The notes under the pieces: model-generated
Seen by the model: the letters and a program-made list of their open reading frames with translations, nothing else
The model's database searches: none
Told to the model about the DNA's origin: nothing
Shown: positions 9,201 through 55,900 of the stretch, piece by piece
Layout of the letters: every line of letters starts with the position of its first letter
Numbering within the stretch: position 1 is the stretch's first letter
Position numbers and translations under genes: made by a program
Source: Sipunculus nudus
Taxonomy: Eukaryota; Annelida; Sipuncula; Golfingiida; Sipunculidae
Reading direction: 5' to 3'
Length of the DNA: 64,000 bases
Assembly: GCA_026874595.1 (NCBI GenBank)
Contig: CM049307.1
Location: 23,785,079-23,849,078, forward strand

Positions 9201-12200
9201 AAATGGAGTGTTGACCTTTTTTTAAAAATCAGCAGGGTTTAAGTAATGTGTACCTGACTAAAATGTATAGATCACGGGAAAAGTTTCAAGTTACTTCCTG
9301 TGTATTGTTGTACATTAGTTAACCCAGAATTCTTTAATTTTACATTATACAGTGGTATCATATTTCATTTAGTGATTGAAAGTTTTGGAACTTATGCAAT
9401 TTGAAATTCTTAGATATTACATATTTATTTGTTACCTTTTATTTCTGATTTAAACAATATATATAATTTGGTGTGCTGAGAAAATTTATTTATTTGGTAT
9501 TTTTTACAGTTCCCAGATGTTGTTCCATTCTGTGAAAAGATGGCAGACAAAGGAAAGACTGTTATAGTAGCTGCTCTAGATGGAACCTTTCAAAGAAAGG
9601 CAAGTCACTTCATGGGTTCTTGTGTTTTACAAAAGATATAAAAATATAATCAATTATGTTTACATATGTCCACTTGTATAGAAATAAGTGCTTATTTCTT
9701 TAATAATAAAATGCTTATTTGACCTTGTATATAGTACAATTATTTTTCCCTCCTAACTTAGTTGAGAAAGGGATAGAGTAATGCCTTCATTCGTGCGTCC
9801 GTCTGTCCATCTGGAATAGGCTTGTGGATCAATTTAAGGCCAAACCGTTTGACCAGAACCTTTCATCCTGCATATATGGCTCACCTTACCATAGATAAAG
9901 AATCCTATCTCTGGGGTCAAAAATCAAAGCCACAGGACCGAATTCTTGAAAAAGCATGTGGACCCATTTTAAGCCTAACCATATAACCAAACCCTTTCAT
10001 CTTGCAAATATTGCTCCCCTACCCATGAATGAAGACCCCAATGGATTTTTGGGTCAAAAGTCTCAGCCACAGGGCCCACTTCTTGAAAAAGCTTGTGGAC
10101 ACATTTTTAGCCAAACTGTTTGACAAAAACCTTTCATCTTGCAAATGTGGCTCACTCACCCATGGATGAAGACCCCAATGGATTTTGAGGTCAAAGGTCT
10201 CGGCCACAGGGCCCAATACTTGAAAAAGCTTGTGGACCCATTTAGAGCCAAACTGTTTGACAAAAACCTTTAATCTTGAAAATATGGATCACCCACCTAT
10301 GGATGGAAAACCATATCGATTTTGAGGTCATGTGGTCAAAGGTCAGAGCAACAAGGCCTACTTCTTGGAAAAACTTGTGGACCCATTTAAAGCCAAACCT
10401 TTTCATTTTCACATATGGCTAACCCACCTATAGATGAAGAACCCTATCTATTTTGAGGTCAGCGGATCAGTGATTAAGGCCACAGGATCCACTTCTTGAA
10501 AAAGCTTTTAGACCCATTTTAAGCCTAACCATTTAACCAAAACCTTTCATCTTGCAAATATTGCTCACCTACCCATGGATGAAGACCCCAATGGATTTTG
10601 AGGTCAAAGGTCTCGCCACAGGGCCCACTACTTATAAAAGCTTTTGGGCCCATTTAGAGCCAAACTCTTTGACAAAAACCTTTAATCTTGCAAATATGGA
10701 TCACCCACCTATGGATGGAAAACCATATCGATTTTGAGGTCATGTGGTCAAAGGTCACAGCCACAAGGCCCACTTCTTGGAAAAACTTGTGGACCCATTT
10801 AAAGCCAAACCTTTTCATCTTCCACATATGGCTCATCCACCTATAGATGAAGAACCCTATCTATTTTGAGGTCAGCGGGTCAGAGATCACGGCCACAGGA
10901 TCCACTTCTTGAAAAAGCTTTTAGACCCATTTTAAGCCTCACCATTTAACCAAAACCTTTCATCTTGCAAATATTGCTCACCTACCCATGGATGAAGACC
11001 CCAATGGAATTTGAGGTCAAAGGTCTCAGCCACAGGGCCCACTACTTGAAAAAGCTTGTGGACCCATTTAGAGCCAAACTGTTTGACAAAAACCTTTAAT
11101 CTTGAAAATATGGATCACCCACCTATGGATGGAAAACCATATCGATTTTGAGTTCACGTGGTCAAAGGTCACAGCCACAAGGCCCATTTTTATTTAAAAC
11201 TTGTGGACCCATTTTAAGCCGAACCTTTTTCCCAAATCTTTCATCTTCCACATACGGCTCACCCATATTTTGGTTAAATGGTTTGGCGCGCTTTAAATGG
11301 GTCCACAAGCTTTTACAAAAATTTGGTCCTGAGGTCACAGGAGCAAAGGTCTTGGCCACAGATCTGCCCTCCTCATTTTCACACTGTAATACACCCATTC
11401 TAATTTTGCCCTGTGTAAGGGGACGCTCTGCTTTGCTGTGCCCTTGTTTGTATGTGTTACCAGTTACACAGAATGTTTTTAGTGCCAGGTGGGTTGTTCA
11501 TGCAACCGAAGATCAGTTAAATCTCATCATGAAAGGAGCTTAAACATAGGGATAAGCTCTTCCTGTCACTAAGTTTTATATGATATTTAAGCTGAAGTTT
11601 CTATTAGTGATTACTTGTACATTGTTTCAAAATTCTTTAAGCTGTTTATTCTTTATCTTGTGCAAGTTCAAAGCTTTGCAGTTATAACGACTTTGTTGTA
11701 TATATGTACCTGTCATTAAATTTCAGGGTTTCTGGGGATCATTGAAAACCTGAAATGTCATATAATTTTATTTTAAACCATAAAAGTTCAAGGCCCTGAA
11801 ATTTTAATTTTGTCACCCAGGTCCTTGAAAATCTTGGACATTTTCCCTGCACAGTCAGTTTTTACACTGTGCAGTTTTTACATTAAGGAAGAATTTATCT
11901 TGTTTATATGAAACACATGAAGCATTTTTATAAACATCTTCATATACAGGGTTTTCCTGTGGTACACAACACTGAGAGTACTATCAGGCAAACCATAACT
12001 GTCAAAATACAACATTATGATATCATTGTTTGACAGTCGAATTCACTAAGAAAGTTTGATCAATTGTACATTTAATAAGCGTTTACTTACAAGTATGAAG
12101 ATGGCTGAGGCAACCCGATATAGGGGGTTGATGATCCAACCTTGTCTCTGAAGCATACTTCATTTTGTCATTAGATCATAACTAAATATAACAACTACCA

Positions 12201-15130
12201 GTACCAGTTGTATATATATATATATATCTCCAAAATGCAAAATGTTATGCAAGAAATTTTCTGACTTAAATTGTTTTGTTTGCCCTACCCTTACATGCCA
12301 GAAGGATTAACCTTTGCATATTGTAGCATCCTCACAGGTGTGTGTATCAGCTGATAAGGATTAACTAATTTTATCACATACTGGATGGACAGGCTCAGAA
12401 ACAGTTGTCATGTATATGGGAAGTTACAATGGATGACAAGTAAATTGTCCTTGTTATCTGCAGTAGCCTGTGGGTTCAGCTTTTGGCCATGAGAAGTCTT
12501 AAATACTGATAAAAATGAACTGATGTATTTCTTTCACTTTGATATACAAGAAGTAAAGTAAATTAACAACACTTCTGTTAAAACCAGCTGGATGTATTCT
12601 CTAGCTAGTTTTTGGGTGCCCAGCCATCTACTTCTCTTGGAAATTCAAGGACTGATCAGCCAATAGAAGGTGGGAGAGACCACATCTAGCAAGTCTTAAC
12701 AAAGGTATCTTCTACTTGCTTTTTTCACTTATAGCTGATACGCTCAACAATCTAATATTATTTCCCTCTGTGATATATTTAATACATGTTTAAGTATGGT
12801 CCCTTTGCAAGAACTTTTTCATTTAATGTCAGATAAAATTTGCTGCAGGCATTCGGGGATTTTCTACAGCTCATCCCCCTGGCAGAGAGTGTAGTCAAAT
12901 TGAATGCCGTGTGTATGATGTGTAATGGTGATGCAGCTTTCACAAAGAGGAAAGGCTCAGAAAAAAAGGTAGGTTAAAGGCACCCATTCACATATCATGT
13001 ATATTCAGTATACATGAAAAACAGTGTTGTAACCTTAAAGAATTTGTGTTATCTGCCAATATTTTCATATAAAGATATTTGCTAACTCCTGTATGCATCA
13101 GGAAATAAGCTTGCATCAGGTGCAATCATTGGCACAAAACATTGTTTCTTCAGTGTGTTCTCTTTCTCATTTCCTCATGTGTGGGAGTTTATGTACCATT
13201 AACATTTCCTAGGAGATTTGTTATCTTTGAACAGTAAATATAACATTAGTTCTGAAACATGATATTTCTGATTTAAAGAAATCCTGTATACAGACGACTG
13301 ACCAAAACTAAATTTGAATAAATCCTTAATATAATTTTTTGCCAAACTATGTCACACATAAATGACATTAATCCATCAAACATCTGCCTGCTTCATTCAT
13401 TGTTACATTTAAAAGTATAATGTTAGTTTGTTTATACCTACATCCATATTCATTGTTAAATAACATGACAGCAGAAATAAGGTATCCAAGCAGCTTTAAG
13501 GATCCTCACAATTTTTTTTCTGTTGTTGAAAACTAGTATATATGAATCCACAAACCTTAAACACACAATTATTGATCAAAGACAGTGAAATCATCCCTAT
13601 TTGACAAAATTTCACTATGTTTACAAATTCTGCTGGACCATAATAATTGTATCCGCCAAAACGAAGTTTTGCGGATACTATGTTTTTGACCGGGTTCCGC
13701 CGCCGCTGCCCCGTTCATTCCAAGAGAACTCCTCTGAGACTACTGGACAGATTTTTACCGAAACTTACACAAATTATCGGGTCACATGTGAACTGGTGCC
13801 TAACCCAGTGGCCTTGACCTCTGACCTTTCCTCTCTGCCCAGCGTCCGTTTGTGCGTCTGTTTCCACACATAAACCCACATATCTTGGGAACCGTTTGAC
13901 CGATCAGGAAAATTTTTTTACACAAATGTAGCGCTTGGATAGCCTTATAACATACACAAAAAAGGTGGCGCCACCTGCAGCCATTTTTGCACAGCTTCCA
14001 TCTGTTTGTCTGCCTTGGGTTAAAATCACTCACATCTCTGCAGTGGTTTGACTAATTCACCTAAAATTCGGCATGCGTATACATCCTAGATAGCTTTCTT
14101 GATTTTATGACAGGAGGCGCCACCTACATTCATGTTAACGCTGCAGACATCCAAGCTCATATCTCGGGAACCGTTTGAGCAAACAGGAAAAAAAGTTTAC
14201 ACAAATGTAGCCCTTGGATAGCTTTATAACATACACAAAAATGGTGGCTCTACCTTCAGTCATTTTTGCTCAGTGTCCATCTGTTTGTCTGCCTTGGATT
14301 AAAATCACTCATATCTCTGCAGTAGTTTGACCGAATAACCTGAAATTTGGCATGCGTATAAATCCCGCATAGCTTTCTTTGATTTTATGACAGGTGGCGC
14401 CACCTACATTCACGTTCACGCTGAAGACATTCATGCTTATATCTCCGGACTCGTTCGATCAATCAGGAAAAAAAATTACACAAATGTAGCCCTTGGATAG
14501 CTTTATAACATACACAAAAAAGGTGGGGCCACCTGCAGCCATTTTTGCACAGCGTCCATCTGTTTGTCTGCTGTGGGATAAAATCACTCATATTTCTGCA
14601 GTGGTTTGACTTTTCCACCTGAAATTTTGCATGTGTATACATCTTGGATAGTTTCTCGTTCAAATAACAGATGGCGCCACCAACAATCATGTTTATGTGG
14701 CAGAGATCCATTCTTATATGTAACACATGTAACTCTATTTCCCCTGCCACTCAAACCATGCCTCACTTCACCCGTCCTACTCAGATTTTGGCGGATACAC
14801 GTAGTCGCTTGTCGACTACCTGTATTCTAGTTTATACTTGATTTGGAATGTCAACATAATTTTCACTTCTTAGAAGTATTTATTCTACTGAGATGGCAAG
14901 ATTAAACAACCATATCATAATTTTCATTATTCCCTTTTTTCCAGGTGGAGGTTATAGGAGGAACTGACAAATATCTGGCAGTTTGTCGACAATGTTACCA
15001 CAGGCGATCTGTCCAGAACAGCCCCTGCAAGGAGAATAATCTAACACCAGTACATCAAGAAAACACAAAAGCTGGCCGCAGACTGTTCATGTCCCCACTG
15101 TCCCCCAGCAAGCTCACAAACAAATCCTGA
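3219..15130 (+). CDS. TK1: Thymidine kinase 1, cytosolic (complete gene, 7 coding exons)
   Basis: Cytosolic thymidine kinase: phosphorylates thymidine to dTMP with ATP in the pyrimidine salvage pathway. Coding exons are 3219-3281, 4704-4735, 5490-5603, 6608-6701, 9510-9599, 12849-12968 and 14945-15130. They splice in phase to 232 codons plus TGA; human TK1 has 234 residues and also seven exons. Visible features are the P-loop GPMFSGKS (residues 25-32, its last Ser split by intron 2), the GIDEGQF segment with catalytic Glu98, ALDGTFQRK, zinc cysteines C153/C156 and C185/C188, the lasso GGTDKY (176-181), and a C-terminal KEN box (200-202), which in vertebrates directs APC/C-Cdh1 degradation at mitotic exit. 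The first of two adjacent ATGs was chosen; MSC also begins the human protein. All donors are GT except intron 5, which is GC. The introns carry several repeats but no exon is disrupted. CLEC16A follows on the same strand. Confidence 0.97.
4704..4735 (+). CDS. TK1: TK1 exon 2 (P-loop microexon)
   Basis: A 32-bp exon after 'ttttgcag', encoding [10 protein letters not shown] plus two bases of the P-loop Ser. Donor TC/GTAAGT, phase 2. It holds almost the whole Walker A loop, which binds the ATP phosphates. Confidence 0.93.
5490..5603 (+). CDS. TK1: TK1 exon 3
   Basis: Acceptor 'gaattgcag', donor ACAG/GTACTC. Completes the P-loop Ser and continues with [11 protein letters not shown], strongly conserved in animal TK1, through the DTRY segment to a split Arg codon. 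Confidence 0.95.
5836..6508. repeat. Interspersed repeat with GTATACCCA ends in TK1 intron 3
   Basis: Begins GTATACCCA (5836) and ends TGGGTATAC (to 6508). Near the start a hairpin forms between GTATACCC and the following GGGGGGATAC. Inside, a segment ending in 'gtggccttgaccttgaat' occurs twice about 325 bp apart (about 5911-6062 and 6243-6388). A run of about 18 G lies near 6457-6474. The start (hairpin followed by TATG and a T-rich stretch) resembles that of the GTATCCGCC elements at 13649 and 43727. It is non-coding, and no subterminal 3' hairpin was seen. Confidence 0.6.
6608..6701 (+). CDS. TK1: TK1 exon 4 (catalytic Glu)
   Basis: Acceptor 'atttcag', donor CAGTTT/GTAAGT, phase 0. Encodes the stretch ending [10 protein letters not shown]; Glu98 in DEGQF is the general base of the TK1 family. 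Confidence 0.96.
7205..9077 (+). repeat. agctca-palindrome repeat family, copy A (TK1 intron 4)
   Basis: Starts with an imperfect palindrome (agctcagcagactataag followed by its near reverse complement, to about 7234). It then carries a ~780-bp body that recurs at 46130 and 58036, with shared stretches such as 'gatattaaggaaaaacctc' and 'atatcaaaaccactgatctg'. A run of 13 C precedes 'agatggtgcataaactag' near 8020. A tail motif 'agctgagcgc..gtga..ccatgggtcc' at about 9035-9064 is like the one ending copy B, so the element may extend that far. The body 7205-8045 is well supported; the rest is less certain. Non-coding. Confidence 0.7.
9510..9599 (+). CDS. TK1: TK1 exon 5 (followed by a GC splice donor)
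   Basis: Thirty codons from [11 protein letters not shown] to ALDGTFQRK, all conserved TK1 sequence. The donor is AAG/GCAAGT: no GT gives a frame that joins exon 6, while GC gives QRK-AFG as in other TK1 proteins. Intron 5 is therefore GC-AG. Confidence 0.95.
9770..11370. repeat. ~137-bp tandem array with trimeric higher-order structure
   Basis: About eleven diverged units, each containing 'cttgaaaaagcttgtggac', 'cctttcatcttgcaaatat' and 'gatgaagaccccaatgg' or close variants. Unit spacing runs about 131, 137 and 147 bp in rotation. Every third unit is most alike (for example near 10500 and 10911), giving a higher-order repeat of about 412 bp. The left edge has a 'cgtgcgtccgtctgtcc' tract. 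It lies inside TK1 intron 5. Frames through it are repeat artefacts. Confidence 0.85.
11371..12848. other. Remainder of TK1 intron 5, no gene seen
   Basis: AT-rich intron with a short (TA)n tract near 12211-12226. No conserved frame or RNA gene was recognised. It ends in the acceptor 'atttgctgcag'. Confidence 0.5.
12849..12968 (+). CDS. TK1: TK1 exon 6 (first zinc cysteine pair)
   Basis: Forty codons from [18 protein letters not shown] through CMMC (C153/C156) to KGSEKK. Donor AAAAAAG/GTAGGT, phase 0. The exon covers the start of the zinc-binding domain. Confidence 0.96.
13649..14830 (+). mobile_element. Helentron/HINE-like element, copy 1 (TK1 intron 6)
   Basis: Begins GTATCCGCCAAAA, which folds at once with the following TTTTGCGGATAC to make a 13-bp hairpin. 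The reverse complement TTTTGGCGGATAC appears again near the 3' end (14786-14798). It is followed by a hairpin GTAGTCgcttgtcGACTAC (14801-14819) and a terminal CTAG (14827-14830) before T. Terminal inverted repeats that are not both at the very ends, plus a 3' subterminal hairpin, fit Helentron-associated non-autonomous elements. The interior holds about three ~300-bp direct repeats with GGCGCCACCT blocks. No Rep/helicase coding sequence. Class assignment is inference. Confidence 0.65.
14945..15130 (+). CDS. TK1: TK1 exon 7 (lasso, zinc pair, KEN box, stop)
   Basis: Acceptor 'cccttttttccag', 61 codons plus TGA. Starts [10 protein letters not shown], then CRQC (C185/C188), a KEN box at residues 200-202, and two SP sites near the end (SPLSPSK). 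SP sites can be CDK targets; that role here is inference. Confidence 0.96.
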   Translation: MEVIGGTDKYLAVCRQCYHRRSVQNSPCKENNLTPVHQENTKAGRRLFMSPLSPSKLTNKS

Positions 15131-40900: not shown

Positions 40901-43900
40901 ATGTATCTGATATTACTGTTATTAATGTTATATATATAGACTGTTGTCATTGTTATATATAGACCTATTGAAAACATTTGGCTTTTTCGTAGAACTGTAC
41001 TTGAAACTTATTCAGTCATACTTATACAGCCATCTAAATCAGTTAAAAACGACCTTTAGAACAGATGATCATGTTATTTATTACTTTGAAAACCACAATT
41101 GTGCAGTGAAAACTTCTTGTGTTTTTTGGCTTCAAGTCCTCTTAGAGAATTCCTATACTTAGAGACTCCTATATTTCCTCAGGAGCCTGGTAGGAGCCCT
41201 GTGTATATAAATATGTGTCTCATATTCTGTGCCTGTCTAGTTTAAATACTGGTATGCACACTATGTCAGATTGTTTAAAAGTGAATTGTGTGTGAAATGA
41301 TACTTTTATAGTGGTCATTAAGATAACAGCAGTGTGGATTTATTATTCCATTGATTCATTAAGAATGTTCAGTATAACATAATTTTTGTGAAATTTTTAG
41401 GTCACTTAATTGAATTTTCAACCATGACTTTACTGATATTTTGATATCAAGATATCATGACTTTGACCACATGATTCTGTGTACTTTCAGGATGAGAGAC
41501 CTCATGTCAGCTCTGTTGTATCATTATTCCTCCTGTCTCAGGTAAATGTATATGCATATAAATACACAGGCGTAGTACATATATGTAGTATAGCATAGTG
41601 AATTTTATATATATAATTCACAAATATAAATGGAAAATGTGTATAAAGAACTGAAAGTGTTCATCCTTTGATGTATCTATATAGTTTTCTGTCACTGTCT
41701 CTCTCTATCTTTATATTTCTCTTTTATTTTCAAAAAAAGTTTTAGATTCTTTGTTAGCTACTGCAAACCAGCTTTTACCAAATGAGACACTGTGATGATT
41801 TAAATAAACAAAAATAAATATATTTACTTTTCTATGCCCTGACTAGAAAGAGCTGGCATCTTTTTAAATGGCTATATCAGAGTTTCCATGTAATGAAGGA
41901 AGGACTTGTGTATGAAGTAAAAGGGTTACATACTAATACCATTGTAATGTCATCTGTATAAATGTAGTTTATGATTTCAGCTCAGGCTGTCCCTGATATG
42001 ACTCAAATTTGACCAGTGTATTTTACAAAAATTGTTGTAAGAAGACAGTTGGATGGGGGTAGTGAAATGGAGTCTAAAATTTCTGTGACACCGGTTTTTT
42101 TTGCCATTAAGTCTTATTCATATCTTATTAATGCTTTGAAAATATATTTATATAATTACTTGATGTCATGCCTGGTTCACACTTTACAGGTGTTAAAGTG
42201 CTAAGGCAGTTAGCAGATCACTTCAACATTTGATATAATGTCAGGTTTATGTCTTACAGGTGTTTCAGGTCACATGGCAGTTAGCAGACAGTCTTCAACA
42301 TTTGATACAATGTCTGGTTTATGTCTTACAGGTGTTTCTGATCATATCACATGCGCCCCTGGTTAGGCAATTAGCAGACATTATCTTCAATGGTGACATT
42401 GATGTGTGTATGGTGGATGCCAGTGCCTCACCTCAAGCTGTAAGTGTCTGTATCTTGATAATACCTCCAGGTAGATCAGCTATACAAGGTTTCATGCTGA
42501 CTGAGAGTTTATATCCTTATCAGTAGCTTCATGTGTTTCCTCTATGCTGTATAAAGTTCTTCTGTGATAAAATTAATTCTAATGAAACAAAAAAGAAAGG
42601 GTTACTTTTATATTGAACATGTGATATTCATATAAAGTATTACTGGGAAAATATTATTTGTTATAATAAACATAAAGAAAATATTACAAGATAACTCTTT
42701 TAATATATTTAAAATGAAGATAACTAACAGAAAAAATAATGTGATACCAAACCATTGCAGGAAGCACACTGCTTTGTGCTTCATTGTTCTCAGAATTTCT
42801 CTGTATTCCTTCTATTTCATTTTACATGTTGTCTTTTTTAATGCACGAAAAGTCATTTGATTTGGCAGTTACATGTTGCATGTTTATCGGTTTAATGTTT
42901 ATATTTGTTTTAGATTTTGGATAAATCCTGGCATTCTTGATACCTACATTACAGGCAATATCTTGCTTAGCTTCTGTTGTATCTTTACCAAATTTTCAAA
43001 ATTTCCTGCAGAGAGGGTTTACTTCAGGTTAATGTGAATTTGTAAACCTAAAAATTATATATATATTATATGTTTGACTTCTGAGATTCTAGTCTTTTGA
43101 ATGAGTTCCAGGTTCCAAATTTGAGTGAGCTTTAGTGAGCCTCTGAGCAGGGATGGGATAATTATACATTTAAAATTATACACAAATAAAAAATAACTTT
43201 ACCTTCAACACAGGGGCACAGACCAAGAAGAGAATTTGTGAAGCCCCCAGAACCGCTGGCACAGACACTAGAGAGTAATAGAGGAGAGGCCGCTCCCGAA
43301 CACCGCCTGAGAAGGAGAGGAGGCAAGCGCAACACTGCCGGAAGATCCGGGAAGAGGGCTAACAGAGACCAGGCCCCTGTTGAAGAGACCGTCGAGCAGT
43401 CGCCAACGCCGAGCAGAGAACCAAGTGTAGAGGGTTAGCATCTGTTCTTTTAAGCACTGTTATCAAAACAGTCTTGGATTATGATACCTCCCCAGTCTTA
43501 AAACCGTTCTTCAACATATATCTTGTATTCAAGACTCTCTTGTAATAGATTTTGACATTCTCCACACAGAAGGTATGTCTGTGAATATCAAGGATTTACC
43601 TCCTGCATTCTCTCATTTACACAGCACGCTTTTATGCTGAAACTGAGCTGTTATGCCTGGGAATTGTAAATTATACAAATTAAGTAAATTGGGGAAAATA
43701 TAGAGCATGCATTGACAACATTAATTGTATCCGCCAAAAGAAAGTTTTTGTGGATACTATGTTTTTGACCGGGTTCCGCCGCCGCGGCGTTCGTTTCCAG
43801 AGAACTCCTCTGAGACTACTGGATGGATTACACCAATTACACCTTACACCAATTATCGGGTCTCATGTGAACTGGTGCCTTACCAATATGCATTGAGCCC

Positions 43901-46900
43901 TGACCTTTCCTCTCTGCCCAGCGTCTATTTGTGCGTCTGTTTCCACACAAAAACCCACATATCTCAGGAACCGTTTGACTGATCAGGAAAAAAATTTTTG
44001 TACAAATGAAACCCTTGGATAGCTTTATAACATACGCAAAAAATGGTGGCGCCACCTGCAACCATGTTTGCACAGTGTCCATCTGTCAGCTGCCTTGGGT
44101 TAAAATCACTCATATCTCTGCAGTGGTTTGACTAATTCACTTAAAATTCGGCATGCGTACACATCCTGGATAGCTTTCTTGCTTTTCTGACAGGTGGCGC
44201 CACCTACATTCACCTTTATGCTGCAGACATCCAAGCTCTTATCTCCGTCTGCCACGGGCTAAAATCACTCATATACATGTAGTGGTTTGACTTATCTGCC
44301 TTATATATTGCATATGTATACAACTTTCACTTTTCAGGATTTTGTGGTAGGTGGCCCAACCTACATACACATTTCGGCTGCAGACATCCATGCTTATATG
44401 CAACACTTCACTCTATTTCCCCTTGCCACTCAATCCATGCCTCACTTCACCTGTTCCACTCTGATTTTGGCGGATACATGTAGTCGCTTGTCGACTACCC
44501 GTATTCTATTTTCAGATATAGCAGTTATGAAGAATACTATTGCCTTTTGTTTGAAATTTTGTAAAACCAAGGGAACTACATAACTGTGTAATATCGGTGA
44601 CAAGGCGGTGTAAATGTATACAAACAATACCACGTGCAACCCAGTTTAAGCACCTGTTGCGTGATTCTGCAGTGATGTCTTGGTCAGTGTGATCTGCCCT
44701 GTTTGTATACAGTGGTTGCCCCAGCAGTTTAAGTCAGTGTCGGTGAAGGTCCCTGAAGTACCGTGCTGGGTGAAAGAGCAGTTGCAGGGGCCCATCATCT
44801 GCCTCAGTAGGTCCTGAGGTTTAGTTTTTGAACCAACTCAGGTTCATGAAAATGGTCTGGGTGTAAACATTGATGAAACCAAATACAATCTGTTTGACTT
44901 GTAAGTTAGAACAGTTCTTTAAGTTATATGAAGTTCTATAACAATCTGATAAACCTGTTTTGTTACATTAGTCCCTGATATCCAGTTCATGAAATACAGT
45001 TAGCTCTATCCCTGAAATTAAATTCAAAATACATACATCATTTTAAAACATTGTAGATACATAACCTATAGCAGCTAAGTATTTATTGCCAAATATATTT
45101 TTGAATATCTGCACATTATTCAAAAAAGCAAAGTCTATATGGTCATTTGTTAGTGCCCCGCTTGACAAACGGTGCCCTATAGTGATCACCGTGTCAGTCT
45201 GTCCTTCCGTACTTCCGTCCTTCCGTCAGTGACACTTTTTTCATGCGTAATAACTCAACAACAACATACTGCAGCTTTCCCAAATTCACAGGGGTGATTG
45301 GTACCTATGAGTGCTCCAGACCTATCAAATTACAGACATGTCGTAATTCCAATATGGCCGCCACAGCCCAATTGCTGATTTTTTTTTGGAAGCAATAACT
45401 CAACAACAACATACTGCAGCTTTCCCAAATTCACAGGGATGATTGGTAACTATGATGGCCCCAGACCTATCGAAATACAAACTTGTCGGAATTCCAATAT
45501 GGCCGCCACAGCCCAATATCTGATTTTCTTTCGCGCGCGATAACTCAACAACAACATACTTCAGCTTTTCCAAATTCTCAGGGATGGTTGGTACCTATGA
45601 AGGCTCCAGACCTATTGAATAACAAACCTGTCGGAATTCCAAAATGGCTGCCATAGCCCGATCACTAATATCCTTTGGCGCGCAATAACTCAACAACAAC
45701 CTAACGCAACTTTCCCAAATTCACAGGGATCATTGGTACCTATGAGGGCTCCAGACCTATTGATTAACAGACCTGTCTGAATTCCAGTATGGCCACCACA
45801 GCCAAATCCCTGATTTCCTTTTGCGTGTGATCACTGAACAACAACATACTGCAGCTTTCCCAAATTCACAGGGATGATTTGTACCTATGAGGGCTCCAGA
45901 CCTATTGAAATACAGACCTGTTGGAATTCTAATATGGCCGCCACAGCTCGATCACTGATTTCCTTTCGCATGGATAACTCAACAACAACCCTACTGCAGC
46001 TTTCCCAATTTCACAGGGATCATTGGTACCTATGAGGGCTCAAGACCTATTGAATTACAGACTTGCTCAAAATCAAATATGGCTAACAGACTACATTCTG
46101 TGATTTTCTATTGCACATTTTTAGCTCAGCTGACTATAAGTCATCTGAGCTCTAGTCTTGGTCCATTGTCCGTCGTCCGTCCGTCTGTCTGTCCGGATGT
46201 CCGTCTGTAAGACTGGCACATTTCGACACCATTGGACCTACGAATCTGAAATTTGCCATACAGTTAGATGTCCAAAAAATCTCCTACCATGCCAAAAATT
46301 GGGTCAGTAGGACTTCGTTCCTTCGAGATATTAAGGAAAAACCTCAATTTTTTTTATTAGAATCTATTTTCACACTTCAGGACTGCCTAATATCAAAACC
46401 ACTCATCTGGTTTTCTTCATATTTACCATAAATAATGGTAAATAATGGACTTTGTAAAAAAATCAGAAATGATATTTGGTCACTTAAGACCAAAAGTGTT
46501 AAAGGTAGGGACTTTTTTTCAGTAATACAACTTTAATTGATCAAAATTTAATTGTATACCAAAAATTAGATCAAAATCTGTTAATTTTTTTTAAATATTG
46601 GGAAAAATATAAAATTGGTACCTTAAATTTTGTCCAAGTTTGACCATGGCCATTTTTCCCTGTAAGTACTGTGGATTTAATTTTCACAGCATGTTTGTGT
46701 TAGCATTTTGTCTGTTAACACCAAAAATTTGAAACAAGTTGATCAAAAACTGTAGATTTTATTCAAGTTTTCAAGCACCATGTCACATCAAGTTTACATC
46801 ACAACAAGTTTACATTATGCAGTTTGCTAGAGCTCAGCTCCCCAGCTTCAGCTCTAAGTTCCTTAAATTTAGCACACAGTTAGATGTCTCCAAATCCCCT

Positions 46901-52900: not shown

Positions 52901-55900
52901 ATGAAGCCTTACACAAATATTAAGAAATTTCATCTATGAGCTTCTATTTTGGTAAAACTGTTGATTATTCTATCTTGGAAGTTTACAATTCAATATAATA
53001 CCAATAATGACATTAATAAAGGGGGAATCAAAAATTAAACTACCCATAGGGAATTACAGTATCTCTCCTTTGATTTCATTATTCTTTATAAATTATGATT
53101 AATCTGTAATAATTGAATATAATGTGATCAGTTGCCATTCATGTTATAGTCAGTATAAAAACTTTTGAAACATACTTTGCATCAGAGATGGTCTTCTTTA
53201 AACAGGTTTTATAGATGACATATATTACTGTTTCAGACCAAGGACCACTACAACATCTCCCTTGTGGAAAAGCTCATACGTATCATATCGAACAGTTGTC
53301 AGAATGGTAAGTCAGTAGGTCAATCACACACATACAATGAACTGAATTTGAGTGTCTCGCAGAACACAAAGGCCAGCCTTTCACCTACCTTTACTATTGA
53401 ATTTACATGATTTCTGGCAAACTATGTGTACATATAAATGAACTTAAGTTAATTCCTATAAAGAAATGTTCTTATTGCGCATTTGTGGTAGATGTATGAG
53501 CTTTTTTATTTATATACAAGTTGTTAGTAAACACAGCAGTGTTGACAAACAGGGTAACCATGGAACCTAAAGTGGTTGGTTACGTATGTGCTAAAGGTGA
53601 AAGGTACCTTGTTGTGAAAATGCCCTTTGCAAAACTCTGCTTCATCTGACTTGCCACCAGATGTCCTTGATGAATGTGTTTGGAGTGTTTTGGTGGGCCC
53701 CCACATGTTATAAATATGTGGATATAAACAAAGAAACAGACTGTGTGTTGTGGGATTGGTATTTACAGGTGTATCTTTATAAAAGGTTCAGCTGATTATC
53801 TTCAGTTAATATATGTCAGATGTCAGAATAGGTTTTTTGAATTTCATATTGAATGTAGCTGTCCCAGCCCAGTATTTTATAGAGGTAGCCTATAGTGTGT
53901 AGCCACAACTTAAAATAACTTGGTCATAGCAGAGGTTTCAGAATATCAGAATTTCATGGTATATATTTACCACATCACATGTCATAATTGCCTGTTTATC
54001 TGATTGTCAGAATTTCCATACACACATTTAAATATCTGTCTTGAGGGAAAATTTCTGCATACATTCTTGCCACTTCAGTTTATTGTTTGTTACAGGTGGT
54101 GAAGTCTGTCTCACTACTTAATTTACTATTTGTTACAGTCAGTAAAATCCATCTTGCTACTTAATTTACTATTCGTTACAAGCAGTAAAGTCCACCTCGC
54201 TACTTAATTTACTATTCGTTACAAGCAGTAAAGTCCATCTTGCTACTTAATTTACTATTCGTTACAAGCAGTAAAGTCCACCTCGCTACTTAATTTTCTA
54301 TTCGTTACAAGCAGTAAAGTCCACCTCGCTACTTAATTTACTATTGGTTACAAGCAGTAAAATCCATCTTGCTACTTAATTTACTATTCGTTACAAGCAG
54401 TAAAGTCCACCTCGCTACTTAATTTACTATTCGTTACAAGCAGTAAAGTCCACCTCGCTACTTAATTTACTATTCGTTACAAGCAGTAAAGTCCACCTCG
54501 CTACTTAATTTACTATTTGTTACAAGCTGTAAAGTCCATTCCGCTACTTAATTTACTGTTCATTGCAGGAAGTAAAGTCCGTCTTGCTACATTAGAGATG
54601 AGCATTCTGCTTTTGAAGCAGCTGGTGTTCCAGGAAGGACAGTGTTTCCTTCAGGACCGCCATCTTGCCTGCCTGGAAGGAGCGCGCGAGGAAGCCACCC
54701 TCCACCTGAGAAACTTCTACAAGGTATGGGAAAAGGTGTGCATGTTTATTCCTACCTTCTAGTCAACCACTTGCTATTAACATAGCACCGCTGTATCCAT
54801 GTGCTGAGCAGGGGCCGATTTAGGATTTTAGGGGGCACATCAGGTGCACCCCCCCCCCCCATCTTTCGACTTAAAAATCATAGAAAAAGATTTTTCATAA
54901 TACCAAATTTAGAACAAAACTACTCCAGATGACACCATTGCAGCCTAAATTAAAAAATAAAATTATCTTTAACATACTAGGGGAAAGATAATTTCCCTTT
55001 CTCTTAGCCTCTCTATATGATCTCCCATTATCAAATCCTGCATCCTCCCCTGCTGAGAATGTATATATATTATTCACTGATTCCTCAAAGTTTGTTGTTT
55101 TGTGTAGAAATTGTTTTATAAAGTGATACTATTTGATGTGTATGCTGTCATGTTGTACCAGTGTGTTTTATGTGTTAGTTTTGATATAGTTTGTAATTGA
55201 TAGCAGATATTCAAATGCTTTTAAAATTCGGTGTAACATATAATTAAAATTAGCTAGATTAAACTAATAATCGAGACAGTCTAATAAAACTTGTCCAGTA
55301 GAGAGTTCCATTCAAAATGATCAGTTAAAAGAACTTAAAATGGAATAAAATCAGTATGTATTTTATAAATATTTATTAAAATACTTTAAGATGTGTAATT
55401 GTCATTTCAGTGACTGTTTGGTGAAAACAGAATGCTTTTAAAATTAAATGAAGTGATATGATGACCCCCCTGCTCCCCCCCCCCCTCCTAAAAAAAAATG
55501 AGAGTCCTGAATATCTGTCCACACGTGTACAACAGTAACTGTCACCTGAACTATTATGATGCATAATGGGCCCAGCATGGCTATTGCCTGCTTTGATATC
55601 CTACATATACCTTACCCTCCAGATTTACCTGTGCCATTCATTGAACGCAGTGTTCTTGATAACTGTTCTCACCCAGAGGAATTAATACAAATATCCAGTT
55701 TCCTGTACACCTGGATCCCTAATAGGCAATGTGTATACATTTTTCATGTTCATACTTAACACATCAGCCACATCACTGGGCACTGTCCAGTTTGCTTATG
55801 TATTCATCAGAGCACACCAGCCATGTCGCAGAGCGCTGTACACTTTGCTTATGTATTCATTTCAACCCTGGCATTATAACTGTATACTTTATGCACCCTT

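Follow-up and report, generated by a model that had tools for sequence, protein, structure and literature searches.

Immediately upstream of one coding exon of the CLEC16A gene, the intron carries a minisatellite of 43-bp units that repeat the junction between that intron and the exon. The array is probably (about 0.82) a 'mirage' minisatellite: an ordinary tandem duplication straddling a splice junction would have been amplified and tolerated, with the copy adjoining the exon being the one used in splicing and the remainder close to neutral. The array lies in a 64,000-nucleotide stretch of Sipunculus nudus contig CM049307.1 (the window). The features discussed are listed in Table 1, with positions counted in the window unless a contig is named.

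The gene was recovered in the window as 11 exon candidates, in a gene model that has gaps. Genome-wide, the profile matches (eight to CLEC16A_C and two to FPL) fall on the same contig and in profile order. For the exon preceding the array, an alternative start at 53206 scores similarly. When this exon and the one that follows the array are joined at 54569, the product gives a gapless match to PF19439 of 75.8 bits, covering profile positions 284–357, and removal of the first eight residues of the downstream exon shows that they are worth 14.5 bits of the profile score. The first 22 bases of this exon are identical to each of the 11 upstream units at 16–20 positions, while outside the array the best matches anywhere in the window reach 14 of 22 on the forward strand (six places) and 15 of 22 on the reverse strand (one place). 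Local alignment of the array with the exon gives a score of 36, compared with 27 for the best of 83 control chunks. An earlier interpretation of this stretch made from the letters alone (the sequence-only reading) had proposed that the array was built from the exon's own junction, and had named an exon-start match no better than chance as the result that would speak against it; the alignment score (36 against 27 in controls) and the unit matches (16–20 of 22 against at most 15 of 22), together with the PF19439 support, bear the proposal out. Since the exon start is conserved gene sequence, as seen in the 14.5 bits and in the gapless joined match, the array is derived from the junction, with the exon as its source. 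The array alone does not reveal the direction of copying, and a pre-existing minisatellite could in principle have supplied the exon start; the conserved family sequence found there and the gapless fit of the joined exons to the profile make this extremely improbable.

Table 1. Coordinates of the CLEC16A array, its neighbouring features and related junction arrays elsewhere.
Feature	Position	Strand	Description	Basis
Preceding CLEC16A exon	53237..53306	+	Ends with 1 extra nt; donor GTAAGT	
Intron holding the array	53307–54568		1262 bp	
TCTTGCCACTTCAG	54065..54078	+	11/14 identical to exon bases 54582–54595, one base off the repeat register	
Upstream unit copies	54070..54543	+	n = 11, 43 bp each	TRF and register alignment
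Leftmost unit	54070..54113	+	Most diverged; 13 differences from core consensus	
Array core	54157..54500	+	8 units, all with weak acceptor TTACAAG	
Last upstream unit	54501..54543	+	Carries decoy start 54527	
Junction unit	54544..54586	+	Acceptor TTCATTGCAG (AG at 54567–54568) and exon start	
CLEC16A coding exon (unit source)	54569..54723	+	Translation ends ...NFYK; first codon split across the intron	Pfam PF19439 (CLEC16A_C), 52.2 bits
Junction duplication before exon 42332–42439, same gene	42190..42439	+		Alignment, Pfam hit
Kinesin acceptor array	from C12:42582264 (stretch C12:42581439-42582933)		31 bp, at least 21.8 copies, truncated by the stretch end	
Myosin exon end and donor array	C7:52358084-52358805 (stretch C7:52358084-52359741)		36 bp, at least 20 copies, truncated by the stretch end	
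Kinesin acceptor array	C14:446173-446815 (stretch C14:445430-446858)		72 bp (a multiple of three), 9 copies	

The array was reported by TRF at 54110–54580 with a period of 43, 11.0 copies and 92% matches. Placed in register, it comprises 12 units between approximately 54070 and 54586, namely the 11 upstream copies and the junction unit as the last; each unit consists of about 21 nt of the intron 3' end followed by 22 nt of the exon start. The count of 12 copies of 43 bp at the exon junction given by the sequence-only reading is thus confirmed, but its start at 54075 is slightly too far right, as similarity begins at about 54065. The leftmost unit requires a one-base gap to fit into the register. 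At the left limit of similarity, TCTTGCCACTTCAG repeats a part of the exon at a level (at least 11 of 14 identical) reached by 0.008% of 63,281 window positions; it may be a microhomology at the founding breakpoint, which is the reading we favour, or else the trace of a further, 13th unit.

The units of the core differ from one another by a mean of 1.6 of 43 positions, and 10 of the 28 core pairs are identical. Outside the core, the differences from the core consensus amount to 13 and 6 in the two left units, 5 in the last upstream unit and 8 in the junction unit. Diverged ends around a near-uniform core are what is usually seen where an array is homogenised internally and its ends are excluded. 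The near-identical core units also fit the recent unequal exchange suggested earlier, although the unit types do not strictly alternate as had been claimed: from 54114 onwards they run catctt, cacctc, catctt, cacctc, cacctc, catctt, three times cacctc, and cattcc. When the array was used as a query against the 1.43-Gb assembly, in a search that leaves out simple repeats and words of very high frequency, no place was found beyond the window itself. Copy number in tandem arrays is often misassembled, and a repeat that was collapsed or expanded by the assembler is therefore a conceivable source of the pattern; distinct variants mark several of the units, and those at the edges have diverged (five of the 12 units are, however, identical), and we regard an artefact of this kind as highly improbable.

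We infer the following route for the origin of the array. A tandem duplication of about 43 bp across the 3' splice junction of the exon, perhaps aided by the motif TCTTGCYAC that is common to the intron end and the exon start, would have copied the acceptor and the exon start into the intron. At a later stage, an inner copy whose acceptor was weak (TTACAAG instead of the TTACAG seen in the left units) would have been multiplied by slippage or unequal exchange, which also made the core uniform, and divergence would have persisted in the units at the edges. Splicing would use the copy that adjoins the complete exon, and the others would leave with the intron and be close to neutral. The choice of this copy is expected from exon definition, by which the acceptor nearest a real exon and its donor is preferred.

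Between 54060 and 54567 there are 30 AG dinucleotides that could act as decoy acceptors. Their strength was judged with a matrix built from 153 acceptors called in this genome, which is partly circular, since the sites had first been called with the help of a generic acceptor matrix. On this scale the acceptor at 54569, the candidate for the used site, scores 10.9 bits (72nd percentile of the 153), and 27 of the 30 decoys lie at or below the 3.3rd percentile. The three decoys that reach the 25th percentile are all at the left end of the array: 54079 (7.8 bits, 29th percentile), immediately to the left of the first repeat junction; 54096 in the leftmost unit (13.1 bits, 94th percentile), the strongest in the array; and 54139 (8.9 bits, 43rd percentile). 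The weak decoys of the core share one inherited state, TTACAAG rather than TTACAG, so that they represent a single event and not independent evidence of selection.

Use of 29 of the 30 decoys would bring in a stop within at most 28 codons, and in the case of 54096 after eight. Nine decoys add a multiple of three nucleotides, and a stop is present in eight of these; the sole open, in-frame decoy is the AG ending at 54526 (exon start 54527), which would add 42 nt, or 14 codons. The sequence-only reading had anticipated both the general disruption of the protein and this single 14-codon extension, and on these points, as on the junction origin, it stands. It had also presented every upstream unit as a decoy: the AGs are there, but its view of them as credible decoys was overstated, as 27 of the 30 are not credible acceptors, including the site at 54527 that it had singled out (3.1 bits, 3.3rd percentile). 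The stronger left-end decoys are not picked out in that reading, which also does not mention the recurrence of junction arrays in this gene and genome or the class to which they belong.

These results bear on two functional interpretations. The array could be a working element of alternative or unproductive splicing, in which the left-end decoys give truncated products and the length of the array tunes CLEC16A output. The leftmost decoy at 54096 has a higher score than the true acceptor (13.1 and 10.9 bits, respectively), so that a scanning view of acceptor choice would predict some use of it; 54139 is of ordinary strength, truncation would follow from 29 of the 30 decoys, and an intronic VNTR in human ABCA7 has been reported, in the part of the paper available, to affect splicing (PMC5954066). 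Against this, the decoys that were amplified in the core are very weak, arrays do not occur at exon edges more often than random placement predicts (see below), and the amphioxus mirages are described, in the available portions of the papers, as not interfering with regular splicing (PMC3087553, PMC3902484); we consider such a role unlikely. It is also possible to imagine the array as an element of coding diversity that inserts 14 residues through 54527, the only decoy that is open and in frame. The weakness of this acceptor and the lower family match of the exons joined with the extension (60.0 bits, against 75.8 without it) leave that proposal very little room. A tolerated mirage, spliced at the copy next to the exon, is the reading retained here, and the best place to look for misuse is 54096 within the array and 42260 elsewhere in the gene.

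The latter site belongs to a second junction duplication in the same gene, before exon 42332–42439. The donor of this exon (42440) was assumed from the GTAAGT and the end of the Pfam hit. There is one clear upstream copy, at a spacing of 72 and with 91% identity over 55 nt, and one weak copy at a spacing of 70 (60%). Exon bases 35–59 align with the upstream copy with a score of 30, which was reached in none of 1000 mononucleotide shuffles (highest 29) and compares with 24 for the best of 181 control chunks; by eye, the upstream copy lacks an internal part of the exon. The decoy start at 42260 scores 11.9 bits (85th percentile), against 12.9 bits (93rd percentile) for the true site at 42332, and would add 24 open, in-frame codons; a decoy of this strength is, with 54096, a counterpoint to the reading of the extra copies as unused. 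The window contains further large tandem arrays at 9820–11265, 13879–14693 and 45250–46062 (periods of approximately 137, 279 and 145), none of them at the exon edges identified.

Junction-crossing arrays were also sought in a sample of exons from across the genome, consisting of myosin heads (69 of 75 hits, six being without the full region), kinesins (85 of 126 hits) and the three CLEC16A exons outside the window. Kinesin hits were picked mainly in list order, starting with the first, and neighbours were added; not included were at least two that ranked fairly high (C11:8368706 and C14:65453743), as well as the 19 ABC-transporter matches, all on small contigs. The sample totals 157 exons with 153 acceptors and 152 donors called (305 edges), all at distinct positions, with flanks of at most 700 nt (for five exons, a flank is shorter than 300 nt). 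A crossing array was defined as one with a TRF score of at least 50, a period of at least 10 and at least 8 nt on each side of the exon edge.

Eight of the 54 unique TRF arrays cross an exon edge in this way, corresponding to eight of the 305 edges and mostly in myosin and kinesin genes; the CLEC16A array is not a one-off in this genome. Among the eight, the exon start of the C1 case is uncertain and the called acceptor of the C3 case is very weak. The three CLEC16A exons outside the window yielded no junction-crossing hit. Random placement, with up to 60 nt of exon allowed, gives an expectation of 10.6 crossings (sd 2.3; P(≥8) = 0.915), so that junctions are not hot spots for arrays, and the idea of an enrichment there was rejected. 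A looser, ungapped test points in the same direction, with hits at 12 of the 305 edges and, among intronic control positions, at 227 of 3140. Eight of these 12 are also TRF crossings of at least 8 nt; for those on C13 and C9 the crossing reported by TRF is only 7 nt, that on C4 has no TRF row, and the TRF row on C16 ends short of the exon edge.

The sampled arrays differ from one another in the strength of their decoys. Counting decoys that score no more than one bit below the called site, there are 16 decoy donors in the C7 array, 16 decoys in C12, 10 in C3, 9 at C14:446080 and 5 in C5, and none in the other three. A rule by which decoys are always silenced was therefore rejected: five of the eight arrays hold at least five decoys near or above the called site, and decoy weakness is not a general feature. 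In the 31-bp kinesin array on C12, the units consist of a strong acceptor followed by about 16 exon bases. For seven of the eight arrays (all but C1), reading frames were counted for the decoys that reach the 10th percentile; open, in-frame decoys make up four of eight in the 72-bp array and one of 20 in the 31-bp array, and in the other five 0/19, 0/0, 0/7, 0/4 and 0/1.

The occurrence of two junction arrays in one gene, and of several in a small exon sample, suggests that such arrays can be common where minisatellites abound in introns. They constitute natural experiments on how the spliceosome chooses among near-identical sites, two of the sampled arrays each carrying 16 decoys within one bit of the real site. 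A broader proposal is that the arrays (8 of 305 sampled edges) form a genome-wide reservoir of splice-site copies whose changes in copy number alter splicing and sometimes coding sequence, as might happen with the 42260 decoy and its 24 open codons, or in the 72-bp kinesin array, where four of eight decoys are in frame and open. This is rather unlikely; if true, the length of an array would work as a heritable rheostat and offer a way to acquire new exon sequence.

Some observations were made in passing during the profile searches. In the muscle-type myosin gene at C2:44837703-44856291, several matches fall on nearly the same stretch of the profile (approximately 109–153) and look like alternative exons. 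One muscle-myosin exon gave almost equal scores with the PDB myosins 'Myosin heavy chain isoform A' (3i5f, from squid; 194.1 bits) and 'Myosin-6' (193.0 bits). The molluscan haemocyanin profile PF14830 matched nowhere, and neither did its controls. Searches for COX1 and COX3 returned mostly bacterial-type genes on small contigs. Nine bacterial-type COX1 matches are of equal length and near-equal score (on C60, C61, C62, C66, C72, C74, C75, C89 and C123), and two of them, on C89, lie approximately 2.04 Mb apart; for one of the matches, the closest of the 80 matches listed is at most 58% identical. These contigs perhaps represent several strains of an associated bacterium. A short COX1 match with one TGA, located on a chromosome (C5:67852325-67852477), is possibly a nuclear copy of mitochondrial DNA.

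Splice sites within minisatellites are known from a small number of systems, whose descriptions are summarised here from the available portions of the respective papers. In human IFI6 (6-16), a minisatellite contains multiple splice donors, which are reported to be used in three mRNA species (Turri 1995, via PMC4526556). The CLEC16A minisatellite likewise has units that carry splice sites, but these are predicted acceptors where IFI6 has donors; as the units repeat an acceptor junction, the array is not a donor-supplying repeat of the IFI6 type, the strength of any GT donors aside. Human intronic VNTRs in ABCA7 (PMC5954066) and TERT (VNTR6-1, PMC11830802) have been linked to splicing and, like the present array, sit within an intron of a coding gene; unlike it, their units are not stated, in the portions of those papers available, to be copies of a neighbouring splice junction.

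The closest resemblance is to the amphioxus 'mirages', described as tandem repeats of intron-exon boundaries with homogenised centres from which the boundary units are excluded (PMC3087553). They are reported for the globin genes BflGb6 and BflGb9, and a globin repeat made up of the 3' end of an intron and the start of the next exon has 6 and 3 units in two haplotypes; RT-PCR suggests that regular splicing is undisturbed by them (PMC3087553). Further examples are PGBD5, Adh (Adh3) and TnC (PMC3902484). Apart from the IFI6 donor repeat, junction-spanning minisatellites called mirages were found only for amphioxus in the literature searched, as far as the accessible text extends. The CLEC16A array differs from these in its gene, its 43-bp unit and its 12 copies, and is known from the sequence of one assembly, whereas length variation between haplotypes and normal splicing are reported for amphioxus in the text available. 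As in BflGb6, the 3' end of an intron and the start of the following exon have been duplicated (PMC3087553), and, as in the amphioxus mirages generally, the unit spans the boundary and AG/GT signals are kept in many units (PMC3087553, PMC3902484). The mirage is thus a class already described, if rarely, and the array shares each of the structural features tested: a unit lying across the boundary (21 nt of intron end and 22 nt of exon start), an exon start that is genuine conserved gene sequence (14.5 bits, with a gapless junction), splice signals retained in many units (30 AGs, 27 of them weak), and a centre evolving in concert (1.6 of 43) with its boundary units excluded (13, 6, 5 and 8 differences).
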